DNA from: Terrimicrobiaceae bacterium
GTDB lineage: Bacteria > Verrucomicrobiota > Verrucomicrobiia > Chthoniobacterales > Terrimicrobiaceae
Assembly: GCA_018402345.1 (NCBI GenBank)
Contig: JAGYIV010000016.1
Coordinates: 124,001 to 188,000, forward strand
Direction: 5' to 3'
DNA: 64,000 bases
Positions 41,263 to 48,146 of this stretch are shown in pieces. The notes under the pieces were generated by a model. The model made no database searches and was not told the origin of the DNA. It saw only the letters and a list, made by a program, of their open reading frames with translations. The position numbers and the translations under genes are program-made. How positions within the stretch are numbered: the first letter of the stretch is position 1; every line of letters begins with the position of its first letter.

Positions 41263-42801
41263 ATGTGCATAAAAATCCCTGCCACCATCATTCTCGCCAC
41301 CTTGGCGCTCCTCACCAGCATTCAACCCGCCCCCGCCCAAGGCACCAAAAAACCGAACATCCTCGTAATATGGGGTGACGACATCGGCCAATTCAACATC
41401 AGCGCGATCAATCGCGGCATGATGGGCTACCGCACCCCGAACATCGATCGCATTGCGAGCGAGGGCGCATATTTCACCGATTGGTATGGTCAGCAATCCT
41501 GCACCGCCGGCCGCGCCGCCTTCATCACCGGGCAGTCGCCGATCCGCACTGGCCTCACGAAAGTCGGCCTCCCCGGCACGCCCGAGGGCATGAAAATCGA
41601 GGATCCGACCATCGCGACACTGCTCAAGGCACAAGGCTATGTCACCGGCCAATTCGGCAAAAACCACCTCGGCGACCGTGACGACATGCTCCCGACAAAC
41701 CACGGCTTCGATGAGTTTTTCGGCAACCTTTACCACCTCAATGCCGAGGAGGAGCCCGAAAATCCCGACTACCCGAAGAATCCCGAGTTCAAAAAGAAAT
41801 TCGGCCCGCGCGGCGTGATCCACAGCTTCGCTGACGGCCGCATCCAGGACACAGGCCCGCTTACGAAAAAGCGCATGGAAACCATCGATGACGAGGTGAA
41901 CGAAAAGGCGCTCGAATTCATGGAGCGCGCCGCGAAGGAGGATAAACCCTTCTTCCTGTGGTGGAACTCCACCCGCATGCACATCTTCACACACCTCAAG
42001 CCCGAGTCCGATGGAAAAACCGGGCTCGGCATTTATGCCGACGGCATGGTTGAACACGACGCCCATGTCGGCCAAGTCCTCGCGAAACTCAAGGAACTCG
42101 GCCTCGAGGAGAACACGATCATCATGTATTCCACCGACAATGGCGCCGAGGCCTTCACATGGCCCGACGGTGGCACCACGATGTTCCGCGGAGAGAAAAA
42201 CACCCAATGGGAGGGTGGCTATCGCGTGCCAACCTTCATCCGCTGGCCTGGCGTGATCCAGCCCGGCACCGTGATCAACGATATCGGCTCACACGAGGAC
42301 ATGCTGCCCACGCTCGTCGCCGCCGCCGGAAACCCCGACGCCAAGGAGCAACTCCTCAAAGGCGCAAAACTCGGCGACCGCTCCTACAAGGTCCACATCG
42401 ACGGCTACAATCTCCTCCCTGCGTTGAAAGGCGATGCCGAGTGGCCCCGCCGCGAATTCATCTACTGGACAGATGACGGCAGCGTCGCCGCGCTCCGCTA
42501 CGACAACTGGAAAATCACCTTCCTCAAACAAAACGCCCACGGCATGGAAGTGTGGCAGCAACCCTTTGAGGAACTTCGCGCGCCGATGGTCTCGAACCTC
42601 CGCATGGATCCCTTCGAGTTGGCCCAAGATATCGGCATGGGCTACGACCGCTGGTATTTCGAGCACATGTTCGTTATCGCCCCAGCCGCGGCGTATGTCG
42701 GCAACTGGCTCCAGAGCTTCAAGGAATTCCCGCCCCGCCAGAAGCCCGGCAGCTTCAATCTCGACCGCGTGATGGAGTCGGTCACCAGCGTTTCTCAATA
42801 G
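41263..42801 (+). CDS. Secreted sulfatase (formylglycine-dependent arylsulfatase family)
   Basis: 512 residues with a signal peptide ending near PAPAQG. Metal-binding NILVIWGDDIGQFNISA is followed by the formylglycine site QQSCTAGRAAFITGQ (Cys80-x-Ala-x-Arg84), which needs a sulfatase-maturing enzyme not found in this window. Downstream motifs: GQFGKNHLGD, NGAEAFTWPDGGTTMFRGEKNTQWEGGYRVP and the C-terminal domain. The protein is of full length and appears active. Verrucomicrobiota use such enzymes on sulfated polysaccharides; the actual substrate is unknown. It is followed 24 nt later by the MscS remnant. Confidence 0.9.
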   Translation: MCIKIPATIILATLALLTSIQPAPAQGTKKPNILVIWGDDIGQFNISAINRGMMGYRTPNIDRIASEGAYFTDWYGQQSCTAGRAAFITGQSPIRTGLTKVGLPGTPEGMKIEDPTIATLLKAQGYVTGQFGKNHLGDRDDMLPTNHGFDEFFGNLYHLNAEEEPENPDYPKNPEFKKKFGPRGVIHSFADGRIQDTGPLTKKRMETIDDEVNEKALEFMERAAKEDKPFFLWWNSTRMHIFTHLKPESDGKTGLGIYADGMVEHDAHVGQVLAKLKELGLEENTIIMYSTDNGAEAFTWPDGGTTMFRGEKNTQWEGGYRVPTFIRWPGVIQPGTVINDIGSHEDMLPTLVAAAGNPDAKEQLLKGAKLGDRSYKVHIDGYNLLPALKGDAEWPRREFIYWTDDGSVAALRYDNWKITFLKQNAHGMEVWQQPFEELRAPMVSNLRMDPFELAQDIGMGYDRWYFEHMFVIAPAAAYVGNWLQSFKEFPPRQKPGSFNLDRVMESVTSVSQ

Positions 42802-42825: not shown

Positions 42826-43287
42826 ATGATGCCCATCCTCGCGGAAGCCGCCTCCACACCGGAGGCGGTCACCACCGCCAAGGATGTCTTCGCCACCGCC
42901 ACCAACTGGGTGTCGGAAAACGGAATCAAGTTCACCGTCGCCCTTCCCAACGCCGCCATCACCGGCGGCAATATCACAAACTTCAGCGCCCACCCGACAC
43001 GGGCGGTTATCGTCCCCAGCACCGTCGGCGGATCCAATTCCCCTGATAAGGTTCGCGCCACTCTCTTGGCCGCCACCGCCGGCAATTCGAATGTGTTGAA
43101 TGAGCCCGCTCCGGTTGCCGTTCTTACCGCTTTGGGTGAAAATAAGTTCACGATGGAGCTTCGCGTCTGGTGCAAGCCGGAGAATTTCTGGGCGGCCCAA
43201 TTCACCCTCAACGAGGCGACCAAAAAAGCCCTCGACGAGGCTGGAGTCACAGGGCCGCTGCCCGCCATGCGGATTGTTCAAAGCTGA
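42826..43287 (+). pseudogene. MscS-type mechanosensitive channel remnant lacking all membrane helices
   Basis: 153 residues. Residues 1-39 match the N-terminal end of a small MscS protein (TATNWVSENGIKFTVAL, just where the first membrane helix should begin). From PNAAITGGNITNFSAHPTRA onward it is the MscS C-terminal beta/alpha-beta vestibule: VPSTVGGSNSPDKVRATLLA, NEPAPVAVLTALGENKF, ELRVWCKPENFWAAQFTLNE and ATKKALDEAGVTGPLP. About 130 residues holding TM1-TM3 and the pore are missing, without loss of frame: 153 + 130 gives the usual ~283. It therefore cannot form a channel. It looks like an in-frame internal deletion; a real soluble protein is possible. Confidence 0.75.
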
Positions 43288-43305: not shown

Positions 43306-44076
43306 ATGCGGAAATTTCTCATCCTCCTTGCGCTACCTGCTGCCGTTTTCGCAGGCACCATCACCGATGAAGTTCGCCCCCTGACTCCACCGCAGGAGGA
43401 AAACTCCGGATGGCATTTTCGTGTCGCTCCCTACCTCTGGCTCACATCGGTCAGCGGCACGGTAGGCGCTGGTCCGCTGAGTGCGGATGCGAATCTCGGC
43501 GCCTCCGACGCGCTCTCCAAACTCACCTTTGGATTCATGGTTCTCACCGAGATCGGCTACGACCGTTGGTCGCTTGAGAACGATGTCATCTACGCCCGCT
43601 TCCAAACGAGCAAGGAAACGCCCGGCCCGCGCTTCGGTCAGCTCAACTCGACGCTCAATCAATTCCAATGGACCAGCCTGCTCGGTTACCGCGTGATCCA
43701 GACAGAGCGATTCAGTTTCGACCTACAGGGCGGTTTTCGGATGCTCTCGCTGGGGTTGGATTTGGAACTTACCCCCGGCTTGCTCAATGGCCGCTCCCGG
43801 TCGTTCTCGCGCACATGGATTGATCCGGTCATCGGGTTTCGCTCCCGCGCGTATCTCACCGATTGGCTATTTGTCATCGCGCGCGGAGACATCGGCGGAT
43901 TCGGAGCGAACTCGGAACTCACCTGGCAGGCCTTCGCCGGAGCTGGCGCACAGATCAGTCGCTGGGCGACGTTTGTCGTCGGCTACCGCGCGATCGGCTA
44001 CGATTACGACCAAGCCGGTTTCTCCTACGAGGTCACCACCTACGGGCCCGTTGCAGGGTTTGAATTAAATTTCTAA
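43306..44076 (+). CDS. Outer-membrane beta-barrel protein of unknown function
   Basis: 256 residues with a signal peptide (MRKFLILLALPAAVFA) and alternating strands from HFRVAPYLWLTSVSGTVG to the C-terminal YGPVAGFELNF, ending in Phe as outer-membrane barrels do. The pattern (about 10-12 strands) resembles small barrels of the OmpW/OprB-like or DUF-type group often seen in Verrucomicrobiota; no substrate can be assigned. It is 18 nt after the MscS remnant, so the two were probably co-transcribed with the sulfatase. Confidence 0.7.
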   Translation: MRKFLILLALPAAVFAGTITDEVRPLTPPQEENSGWHFRVAPYLWLTSVSGTVGAGPLSADANLGASDALSKLTFGFMVLTEIGYDRWSLENDVIYARFQTSKETPGPRFGQLNSTLNQFQWTSLLGYRVIQTERFSFDLQGGFRMLSLGLDLELTPGLLNGRSRSFSRTWIDPVIGFRSRAYLTDWLFVIARGDIGGFGANSELTWQAFAGAGAQISRWATFVVGYRAIGYDYDQAGFSYEVTTYGPVAGFELNF

Positions 44077-44176: not shown

Positions 44177-44427
44177 ATGAAGACAACCTTGATCCCGATT
44201 GGAAATTCGCGCGGCGTGCGGATTCCAAAGCCCTTCATTGAAAAATGCGGACTTGAGGGGGAGTTGGAAATCGATATCGCGGACGGCGTAGTCCTCATCC
44301 GGGCCCCACGACGGGCGCGCGGGGGTGGGCTGAGGCCTTTGAGCGCATGGCGCGGGAAGGCGACGACAAATTGCCCGTCCACGCGACCGCCACACGATGG
44401 GACAAGGAGGAATGGGAGTGGAAGTGA
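44177..44427 (+). CDS. mazE: MazE/AbrB-fold antitoxin, frameshifted at 44321-44325
   Basis: The N-terminal swapped-hairpin domain is intact: MKTTLIPIGNSRGVRIPKPF, then CGLEGELEIDIADGVVLIRAP. After RRARG the frame breaks in a run of five G. With six G it would continue GWAEAFERMAREGDDKLP and end DKEEWEWK-stop at 44427, a standard 83-residue MazE with an acidic toxin-binding tail. As written, the frame runs on to 44437 with an unrelated tail, and the toxin would lack its antidote. An uncorrected loss would be harmful to the cell, which favours a sequencing error. Confidence 0.8.
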
Positions 44428-44741
44428 AGCGCTTTGATGTTTTCCAAGTCGCCCTTGATCCCACCATCGGGCGGGAGATCAAAAAGAAGCGGCCTTGCAC
44501 GATCATCTCTCCCGACGAAATGAATCGGCATATCGGGACAGTGATCATCGCGCCCATGACCAGCAAGGGGCGGAACTACCCCAGTCGGGTTCCCTGCACA
44601 TTCCAAGGAGTCCAAGGTCAAATCGTGCTGGATCAAATCCGGACCATCGACAAATCACGACTCGTGATAAAACTCGGCCGCCTTTCTCCTTCAACCAGTG
44701 ATCGAGTGCTTCATATCTTGGGAGAGATGTTCGCAAAGTAG
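44412..44741 (+). CDS. mazF: MazF/PemK-type endoribonuclease toxin
   Basis: 109 residues from ATG 44412 (MGVEVKRFDVFQVALDPTIG). MazF features: GREIKKKRPCTIISPDEMN (the RP-x-x-V/I-x-SP motif with catalytic Arg and Ser/Thr), HIGTVIIAPMTSKGRNYPSRV, VQGQIVLDQIRTIDKSRL and ILGEMF. It cleaves mRNA at specific short sequences when freed from MazE. It overlaps the mazE 3' end by 16 nt, normal for the pair. It is intact, unlike its antitoxin gene as assembled. Confidence 0.9.
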   Translation: MGVEVKRFDVFQVALDPTIGREIKKKRPCTIISPDEMNRHIGTVIIAPMTSKGRNYPSRVPCTFQGVQGQIVLDQIRTIDKSRLVIKLGRLSPSTSDRVLHILGEMFAK

Positions 44742-44744
44742 CCT

Positions 44745-45970
44745 ATGAGTTTTTTAAAAATGCGATTTGCAGCCCTCCTTCTTGTTCTCATCAACAGCGC
44801 CATCGGCGCGGAACCCTTGGGTTTCGAAACGCCGGGCCCGGTTCCATCGGCCGAGCTACTTCCACCGGCTTTGCTGTCTCAAACCGGCCCAACTGCCCAT
44901 ACCGACGGGCTCCATGCGACCTACGAGCTTTTCAACGGCTCCGCCCGCGAGGAGATCACCGGCACGCAACTCCTCGCCACCCGCATCCGCGAACTCCGAG
45001 CCATCGCGTCCCTTCGCGCCATGAACAAATCCGCCGAGTTCGGCAAGGCGCTCCTCCAAACCGGCGGCGAAAAAATCCAAAGCGTCGGAGCTGCGGTGAA
45101 GGATCCCGTTGGGACTGCCAAACGCCTCCCGCAAGGCGCATCGAAGTTTTTCGGCCGTGTCGGCAACTCGATCAAATCCATGGGCGAGGGCAAAGTCGGT
45201 GCCACCGAGGCCGTCGAAGCCGCTGTCGGCGTGCACCGCAAAAAAGCCGAACTCGCCCTCCAAGCTCGGCGTGAGCCCGTTTTCCACCGACCCCGTGTTG
45301 CAGGCGGAACTCGATGCCGCCGCCCGCGCCATGGCCGCCGGAGCCTCGCTGGTGAATTTTTCAGGACTCCTCGTCGGAGGCGGTATCGGCACCGCGCTCT
45401 CTGCCGTGAACATGAACGACACCTTCCAGCGCGCCCTCGTCGAATCCTCCCCAGCCGAACTCGTAGCCCAAACCCGCGCCGCCCTCCAATCCCTTGGCGC
45501 ATCGCCCGAAACTCTCGACGCCTTCCTCGCCAACCCCTCCTTCAACCCCTGGCAAAAATCCGCCATCGCCAAACTCCTCGCCACCATCGGCCACAACCCC
45601 GACCCACTTCTCGCGCAGGCCGCTCCAGGCCACATCTCCCGAGGACGCTGTCTACTTCGTCCAAACGACCCGCCTCTTTGAAAACCACCACAACATCAAC
45701 GCGCCGATCACCGAATTCCGAGCCATGAACGGCATTCCTTGCGCGCTCGACCGCGACGGAACCCTCGTCGTTGCCGTCGCCGCCGATTTCATCCAGTGGA
45801 CCCCGTTGGTTGAATCGCGCGCCAATGAATTTCTGGAGATGAAAAAATCCAACCCCGACATCCAATCCCTCCGCCTCACCACCGATGGCATCATGTCCCC
45901 GCGCGCCCTCGAAGCCCTCGCTGCCAAAGAAATCCAAACCACCCCGCAAGCCCTCGGCCCCGTCGAATGA
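44745..45970 (+). pseudogene. Secreted protein of unknown function, broken by two frameshifts
   Basis: Three consecutive frames together make one protein of about 408 residues. Frame A (from ATG 44745, or 44760 = MRFAALLLVLINSAIGAE, a signal peptide) is good to about KKAELALQ near 45265. Frame B takes over with LGVSPFSTDPVLQAELDAA and a Gly/Ala-zipper-like stretch (GLLVGGGIGTALSAVN), then LAQAA near 45625. Frame C continues ATSPEDAVYFVQTTRLFENH to the stop at 45970 (QALGPVE). Both shifts go the same way (+1 or -2). I recognise no family. The stop overlaps the HAD gene ATG (ATGA), so the reading unit was once intact. It starts 3 nt after mazF. Confidence 0.65.
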
Positions 45971-46988: not shown

Positions 46989-47097
46989 AAGATGTATGGC
47001 TCTTTTGCTCAGTGGAAAAGGCTGCTCTCTCTCATGGTCGGTCTAAAACGGCTTGGATTTTCTTTGCGCCTATTTTTTCCCGGACACAATTCCAAGA

Positions 47098-48146
47098 ATG
47101 AGTGATTCAGCGGGCAGGATGGGTTTTTTTGAAAAAAATCTTACGGTATGGGTGGTGTTATGCATGGTGGCCGGAGTTCTTATCGGGAGGTTTCTACCAG
47201 TGGTGCCGGATTTTCTCTCCCGATTCGAGTATGCGAATGTATCGATCCCGATTGCGGTGCTGATCTGGCTCATGATCTACCCGATGATGATGAAGGTCGA
47301 TTTTACGAGCCTTAAAAATGTGCGGAAAGAACCCCAGGGCCTTTATCTCACCTGGGTGGTCAATTGGCTCATCAAACCCTTCACGATGTTTGGCTTGGCA
47401 GCCTTTTTTTTCTTCGTGGTCTTCAAGGCGCTGATCCCTGAGGAATTGGCCAAGGACTACCTGGCCGGTGCGGTGATTCTGGGAGCGGCGCCCTGCACGG
47501 CGATGGTGTTTGTCTGGAGCCACCTCACGCGGGGAAATCCGGCCTATACCGTGGTGCAGGTCGCAACAAACGATCTGATTATTCTCGTAGCATTTGTGCC
47601 AATCGTGGTTTTCCTGCTTGGGATCGGTGGGGTAACGATCCCGTGGAGCACATTGGTTCTGTCGGTGGGGCTCTTCGTGGTTATCCCTCTGGCGGGGGAA
47701 TTCTCACACGCACCGCGGTGATTCGGAAAAAGGGGGCGGACTACTTCCACCGCACATTCATCCCGAAGTTCAATAACATCACAATCGTGGGCCTGCTCCT
47801 CACACTCGTTCTCATTTTTTCCTTCCAAGGCGGAGTGATTCTGGGAAACCCGCTACACATCCTTCTCATTGCAATCCCGCTTGTTATTCAGACATTTCTC
47901 ATCTTTTTCATTGCCTACTGGGCGGGCAAAAAACTCGGGTTGTGTCACGATGTCGCAGCCCCGGCCGGAATGATCGGAGCCTCGAACTTCTTTGAACTCG
48001 CAGTCGCTGTAGCAATTACACTTTTTGGAGCATCCTCTCCGGTAGTCCTCGTCACAATCGTTGGCGTTCTCGTTGAGGTCCCTGTCATGCTGGCACTTGT
48101 AAAGATCGCCAATCGCACGGGGCATTGGTTCCCAGCACGGCTGTAA
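47098..48146 (+). pseudogene. arsB: ACR3-family arsenite efflux permease, one-base frameshift near 47695
   Basis: The combined frames give about 349 residues with ten membrane helices: MGFFEKNLTVWVVLCMVAG, IPIAVLIWLMIYPMMMKVDF, the conserved thiolate helix GAAPCTAMVFVWS (the Cys needed for arsenite in ACR3), QVATNDLIILVAFVPIVVFLLG, and at the end GMIGASNFFELAVAVAITLFG and VGVLVEVPVMLALVKIAN. The frame breaks in CTGGCGGGGGAATT: six G instead of five would join VIPLAGG to ILTRTAVIRKKG. It should expel As(III) driven by the membrane potential. No ars regulator or reductase is beside it; the ArsR protein at 5.4 kb is far away. Confidence 0.8.

Follow-up and report, generated by a model that had tools for sequence, protein, structure and literature searches.

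A short MscS reading frame without its membrane region in a Terrimicrobiaceae genome, the probable remnant of a lost channel gene

Within the window (the whole 64,000-nucleotide stretch of DNA that was analyzed), the 153-residue open reading frame at 42826-43287 on the + strand was found to consist of the two ends of an MscS protein with the middle missing, and it is probably the remnant of a dispensable MscS paralogue after a real, lineage-specific 402-bp deletion. One such deletion would have taken TM1-TM3, the pore helix, and most of the beta-domain, and the reading frame would have survived by chance (1 in 3), leaving a 153-codon frame with the alpha/beta domain; the remnant would be without function and the loss recent. 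With the helices and the pore absent, the channel cannot work, and the loss was probably tolerable because three other beta-domain genes remain in the genome. As a gene remnant, the frame would provide a clean example of whole-domain loss from an accessory channel gene and, if expressed, it would be a natural test of the function of the MscS cytoplasmic domain apart from the channel.

The short reading frame and its joint

The closest relatives of the gene (L003, L004, and L005, from genomes G003, G007, and G004, respectively; L005 is 100% identical to G004) encode 286, 286, and 287 residues. Relative to these, the parts of the short frame are as follows:

42826..42945, + strand: first 40 codons of the gene, retained up to the start of TM1; 25 of 40 residues identical to L005 1-40
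42944..42945, + strand: deletion joint, where 402 bp (134 codons) of the relatives L003, L004, and L005 are missing
42946..43287, + strand: C-terminal 113 codons plus stop, retained; they cover a final piece of the beta-domain, then the alpha/beta domain and the C-terminal end; 94 of 113 residues identical to L005 175-287

The sequence-only reading had described the frame as joined MscS ends from between which the three helices and the pore had been cleanly removed in frame, and the comparison bears this out, with 40 + 113 residues matched to L005 and exactly 402 bp missing in frame, the same size against each of the three relatives. By alignment, residues 41-174 of L005 have no counterpart in the 153-residue protein, and no 19-residue hydrophobic segment is left in it (best Kyte-Doolittle mean of 0.73 vs. 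2.27 in L005). The lost stretch corresponds to approximately residues 32-165 of E. coli MscS, as read from the alignments; with the transmembrane limits that we assume for that protein, the deletion removes TM1-TM3 and the pore helix, together with 51 of the 65 residues of the L005 match to the beta-domain family PF00924 (124-188), so that 14 remain.

Profile searches agree with this extent. At a threshold of E <= 0.001, the one Pfam match of the 153-residue protein was PF21082, the C-terminal MscS domain (E 9.7e-11, 42.4 bits against a cut-off of 21); PF00924 had no match in the protein and none at this locus in the genome, and the Pfam transmembrane models had no match in the protein. By comparison, full-length L005 and L003, the two relatives covered by the scan, carry PF05552, PF00924, and PF21082 above cut-off, with PF21088 falling slightly short. 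The NCBIfam model NF007662, an MscS subfamily, scored 38.3 bits against a cut-off of 321, a miss that says little because full-length L005 also falls below the cut-off, at 166 bits. Among solved sequences, PDB 7dlu scored best. The closest known system is the MscS small-conductance mechanosensitive channel (E. coli MscS), to which L005 aligns from TM1 to near the C-terminus; the 40 N-terminal residues and the alpha/beta domain of the window protein match MscS orthologues, whereas TM1-TM3, the pore helix, and most of the beta-domain of the channel are lacking. Combined, profile and hydropathy place the alpha/beta domain as present and the membrane segment as absent; as read from sequence, the remainder is an alpha/beta domain with a short N-terminal tail and is not a vestibule.

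The proposed join to the cytoplasmic vestibule therefore held in part: the alpha/beta domain was kept, but the vestibule is not whole. A soluble, vestibule-forming heptamer, an oligomer of the kind suggested by the sequence-only reading, is very improbable. The alpha/beta domain and the C-terminal end that such a ring would use are present; however, the loss of 51 of the 65 beta-domain residues makes a soluble ring unlikely, and only these two parts would be left to provide contacts. The AlphaFold2 model, built from nine sequences, also had low confidence around and after the joint, with a mean pLDDT of 61, no residue at or above 90, and values below 50 at residues 1-10, 33-56, and 147-153; an alpha/beta arrangement was modeled at residues 59-138. 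With this model, the top Foldseek matches were MscS chains (probability 1.00, TM-score of approximately 0.55 by query), and the rmsd was approximately 11 A; the overall superposition is therefore loose.

At the joint itself, the parental match from the left ends at 42944 and that from the right begins at 42944 (G004, G007) or 42946 (G003), with the relatives standing in for the parent sequence, which may have held a short homology since lost. The overlap is consequently a single T against G004 and G007 and nothing against G003, so the CTTC/CCC microhomology proposed for the joint was not recovered, and slippage at a repeat is unsupported there by the joint overlap. Retention of the frame would be a matter of chance, as expected for one deletion in three.

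An assembly artefact or strain mixture, in which the full gene is present in the population and a minority deletion or chimeric read entered the consensus, is improbable as a source of the joint. The genome is a draft of 17 contigs, and in the related genome G003 the locus likewise contains a large gap that keeps the frame, both of which would fit such an origin. However, an overlap of at most 1 nt would leave no repeat on which an assembler could collapse, and the 3.14-Mb assembly yielded no copy of the missing MscS segment at another place: a search with the full-length protein returned three distant paralogues (25-30% identity) in addition to the two halves present here. Additionally, indels were surveyed against three relatives in four blocks, two in one block, and one in one block, with the first and last 30 alignment columns left out and an indel counted only if all aligned relatives differed. 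Across these six blocks (A, B, C, D, E, and G; approximately 10.6 kb of aligned coding sequence), no window-only frame-breaking indel was found away from the block ends, and one block contained a 12-bp window-only insertion, in frame. A noisy assembly as a general cause was rejected on this basis. The seventh block, the gene at 44760-45967, has two frame-breaking indels.

Orthologues, gene order, and damage at the locus

The neighbors of the short frame that were used for comparison of gene order are as follows:

41263..42801, + strand: sulfatase, intact, 24 bp upstream of the MscS frame (PF00884, E 8.3e-52); a conserved neighbor
43306..44076, + strand: predicted outer-membrane barrel protein, intact, 18 bp downstream of the MscS frame and called a barrel by eye
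44760..45967, + strand: next conserved gene, with two single-base frameshifts; in a tblastn search, the L003 product matches in three pieces that lie in different frames

The records of the relatives are verrucomicrobial and of the AMD-G4 lineage. Fifteen other genus genomes were compared: five carry a full-length orthologue (G003, G004, G007, G012, and G013), one (G008) carries a C-terminal relic, and nine have no close orthologue; these nine are 64-99% complete, several being incomplete. The order sought, sulfatase, full-length MscS, and barrel gene, was found in G004 and G007. In G003 and G012, the sulfatase and MscS are followed by a homologue of the window gene at 44760-45967, and the G013 stretch holds MscS and that homologue before the contig ends. 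Sulfatase homologues adjoining MscS are 86-93% identical in L065-L068, with a shortened copy in L065 (from G003). In L066 and L067 the gene order is retained, with the barrel protein at 76-79% identity; this protein had no Pfam or NCBIfam match.

None of the five full-length orthologues carries the deletion; the question raised from sequence, whether orthologues share it, is therefore answered in the negative, and a shared or programmed short architecture is ruled out. More widely, a PF21082 search covered 197 genomes of the order, and short frames were compared among the matches listed. Those in G029 and G045 are frame breaks within longer MscS proteins, and those in G193 and G006 appear to run to contig ends, with G006 having a longer match in the genus search; G127 (117 aa, with its match 5 bases from the contig end) and G177 (221 aa) were left out of the comparison. 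Among the matches listed and looked at, only G008 is comparable to the window frame.

The G008 relic (L016/L070) has lost the same half of MscS, and the right end of its loss, placed by eye, lies 6 bp downstream of the right end of the window deletion. It differs from the window frame in the size and products of the loss: relative to G012, 2,269 bp comprising the sulfatase and the N-terminal and transmembrane part of MscS are gone, and 24 bp of filler stand in their place (L070:3418-3512, G008:C236), between flanks with 93% and 91% DNA identity to G012. The two 14-base ends of the filler were absent from the 16 kb of G012 that were searched. In the relic, the first in-frame ATG, GTG, or TTG is a GTG that lies 21 codons in; this position would fall in the first strand of the alpha/beta domain, and 91 residues could be read from it. 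The relic is taken as dead. The two deletions are separate events because each genome has a nearer relative with the full gene, and the chance that two ends fall as close as 6 bp in a gene of approximately 860 bp would be of the order of 1-2%, as estimated post hoc.

A third kind of lesion is found in the G003 sulfatase (L003:3174-4436), in which 87 residues are missing in frame between two GQF-coding direct repeats. Repeat-associated loss, unsupported at the window joint, thus does have a matching arrangement in this neighboring gene. The segment lost from the G003 sulfatase presumably includes the active-site Cys motif. Different kinds of damage are therefore present at the sulfatase-MscS locus in three genus members, counting this genome.

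Decay is the likeliest fate of the remnant. An inactivating lesion, the 402-bp loss, is present relative to intact orthologues in the same place, no close orthologue was found in nine of the 15 other genus genomes, and the locus has been damaged separately in two relatives. The two frameshifts in the next conserved gene of the window, the raised omega of the shortened sulfatase on the G003 branch (below), and the lack of any remaining hydrophobic segment point the same way. Weighing against decay, the frame, the start codon, and the whole 3' part have been kept, and the sulfatase and barrel genes are intact on both sides. The other three PF00924 places in the window's genome (G000), none of which is at this locus, are the genes that would have made the loss tolerable.

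Selection on the retained domain and a possible role in trans

Selection on the 113 retained codons was estimated with a codon model (own script, fixed tree, seven sequences), in which synonymous sites are near saturation, so the numbers are rough. Under a two-ratio model, omega on the window branch was 0.039 vs. 0.081 elsewhere (LRT 2.15), and omega = 1 over the whole window branch was rejected (LRT 34.3); across these 113 codons with near-saturated synonymous sites, no relaxed selection on the remnant was seen on that branch. A neutral stretch at the tip of the branch is limited to approximately 0.1 substitution per codon, compared with approximately 2.4-3.0 for the rest of the branch, and such a segment was not favored, with a drop of approximately 1.9 log units near 0.1 substitution per codon. 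Accordingly, any neutral period of the domain spans no more than a few per cent of the branch, if there was one. The low omega therefore suggests that either the loss was recent or the remnant is still constrained.

Comparison with other branches and with a neighboring gene limits how these values are read. The relic-bearing G008 branch had an omega of 0.238 (LRT against 1 of 1.6), and this control is weak because the intact G012 gave a similar value of 0.202 (3.92). The sister G004 branch had an omega of 0.018 (LRT against one ratio of 10.24); omega therefore varies among intact branches too. For the sulfatase, the window branch showed no change (0.021 vs. 0.026), and omega was raised on the G003 branch that bears the shortened copy (0.098 vs. 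0.022, LRT 6.18).

Continued constraint would fit a second explanation, in which the kept alpha/beta domain is not a channel and is a functional soluble protein that may bind polymerized FtsZ in trans, modulating division or wall synthesis; from the analysis as a whole, this is considered unlikely. According to Koprowski et al. 2015 (PMC4440785), the isolated alpha/beta domain of E. coli MscS binds GTP-polymerized FtsZ, its overexpression leads to filamentation, and K258A/R259A weakens FtsZ binding by this construct, ABDOM (E. coli residues 175-265). Residues 166 to 274 of E. coli MscS align with the kept C-terminal part of the window protein, which therefore includes the equivalent of ABDOM, and K133/K134 align with K258/R259, as read from the alignment. 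The likeness is one of domain content: ABDOM is a laboratory construct that was overexpressed for filamentation, whereas the frame in the window is natural and retains 40 N-terminal MscS residues as well as the C-terminal end. Within titles and abstract openings, the literature search recognized no natural MscS lacking the membrane part, and only PMC4440785 was to the point on MscS, FtsZ, and ABDOM.

The low omega on the window branch and the G008 deletion, which leaves the same domain with its 91 residues readable from the GTG, would also be in keeping with a retained soluble protein. However, the G008 relic has no ATG, GTG, or TTG before that GTG and no recognizable MscS start, and it therefore gives little support for a kept protein. 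The lysine pair is also present in the full-length orthologues L003-L005, and the confidence of the structural model is modest, with pLDDT below 50 at residues 33-56. Changes at positions that are invariant in the other six sequences number five in the window protein vs. two in the sister G004, too few to weigh. That one deletion made a natural soluble alpha/beta-domain protein acting in trans on FtsZ or another partner is judged quite improbable. If it were true, nature would have separated the channel from the non-channel role that has been proposed for E. coli MscS, and this may have happened twice in the genus, at nearly the same base. A remnant of a lost paralogue, with a deletion recent enough to leave little trace on the branch, is the most economical explanation overall.

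Lesions and other features downstream of the locus

The frame breaks in the gene at 44760-45967 correspond to single-base differences near 45260 and 45622 relative to one aligned relative, L003, whose product had no Pfam or NCBIfam match; the homologue in L065 is open in one frame. Between the barrel gene and this broken gene, a MazE/MazF-like toxin-antitoxin pair lies at 44177-44741, with PF04014 slightly below cut-off and PF02452 above it. The pair is missing from that place in L065-L067 and has an 81% DNA match elsewhere in G004, and L067 has a distant MazF-like match upstream of the sulfatase.

Two further genes may carry frame breaks. In G003, a HAD-family gene (L065:9648-10557) is seen as two overlapping pieces in different frames and may be frame-broken. 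In the window, an arsenite-type permease-like transporter at 47053-48146, identified by eye, is seemingly split in two frames near a G run at approximately 47,693, where the split would be either a real frameshift or a sequencing error.
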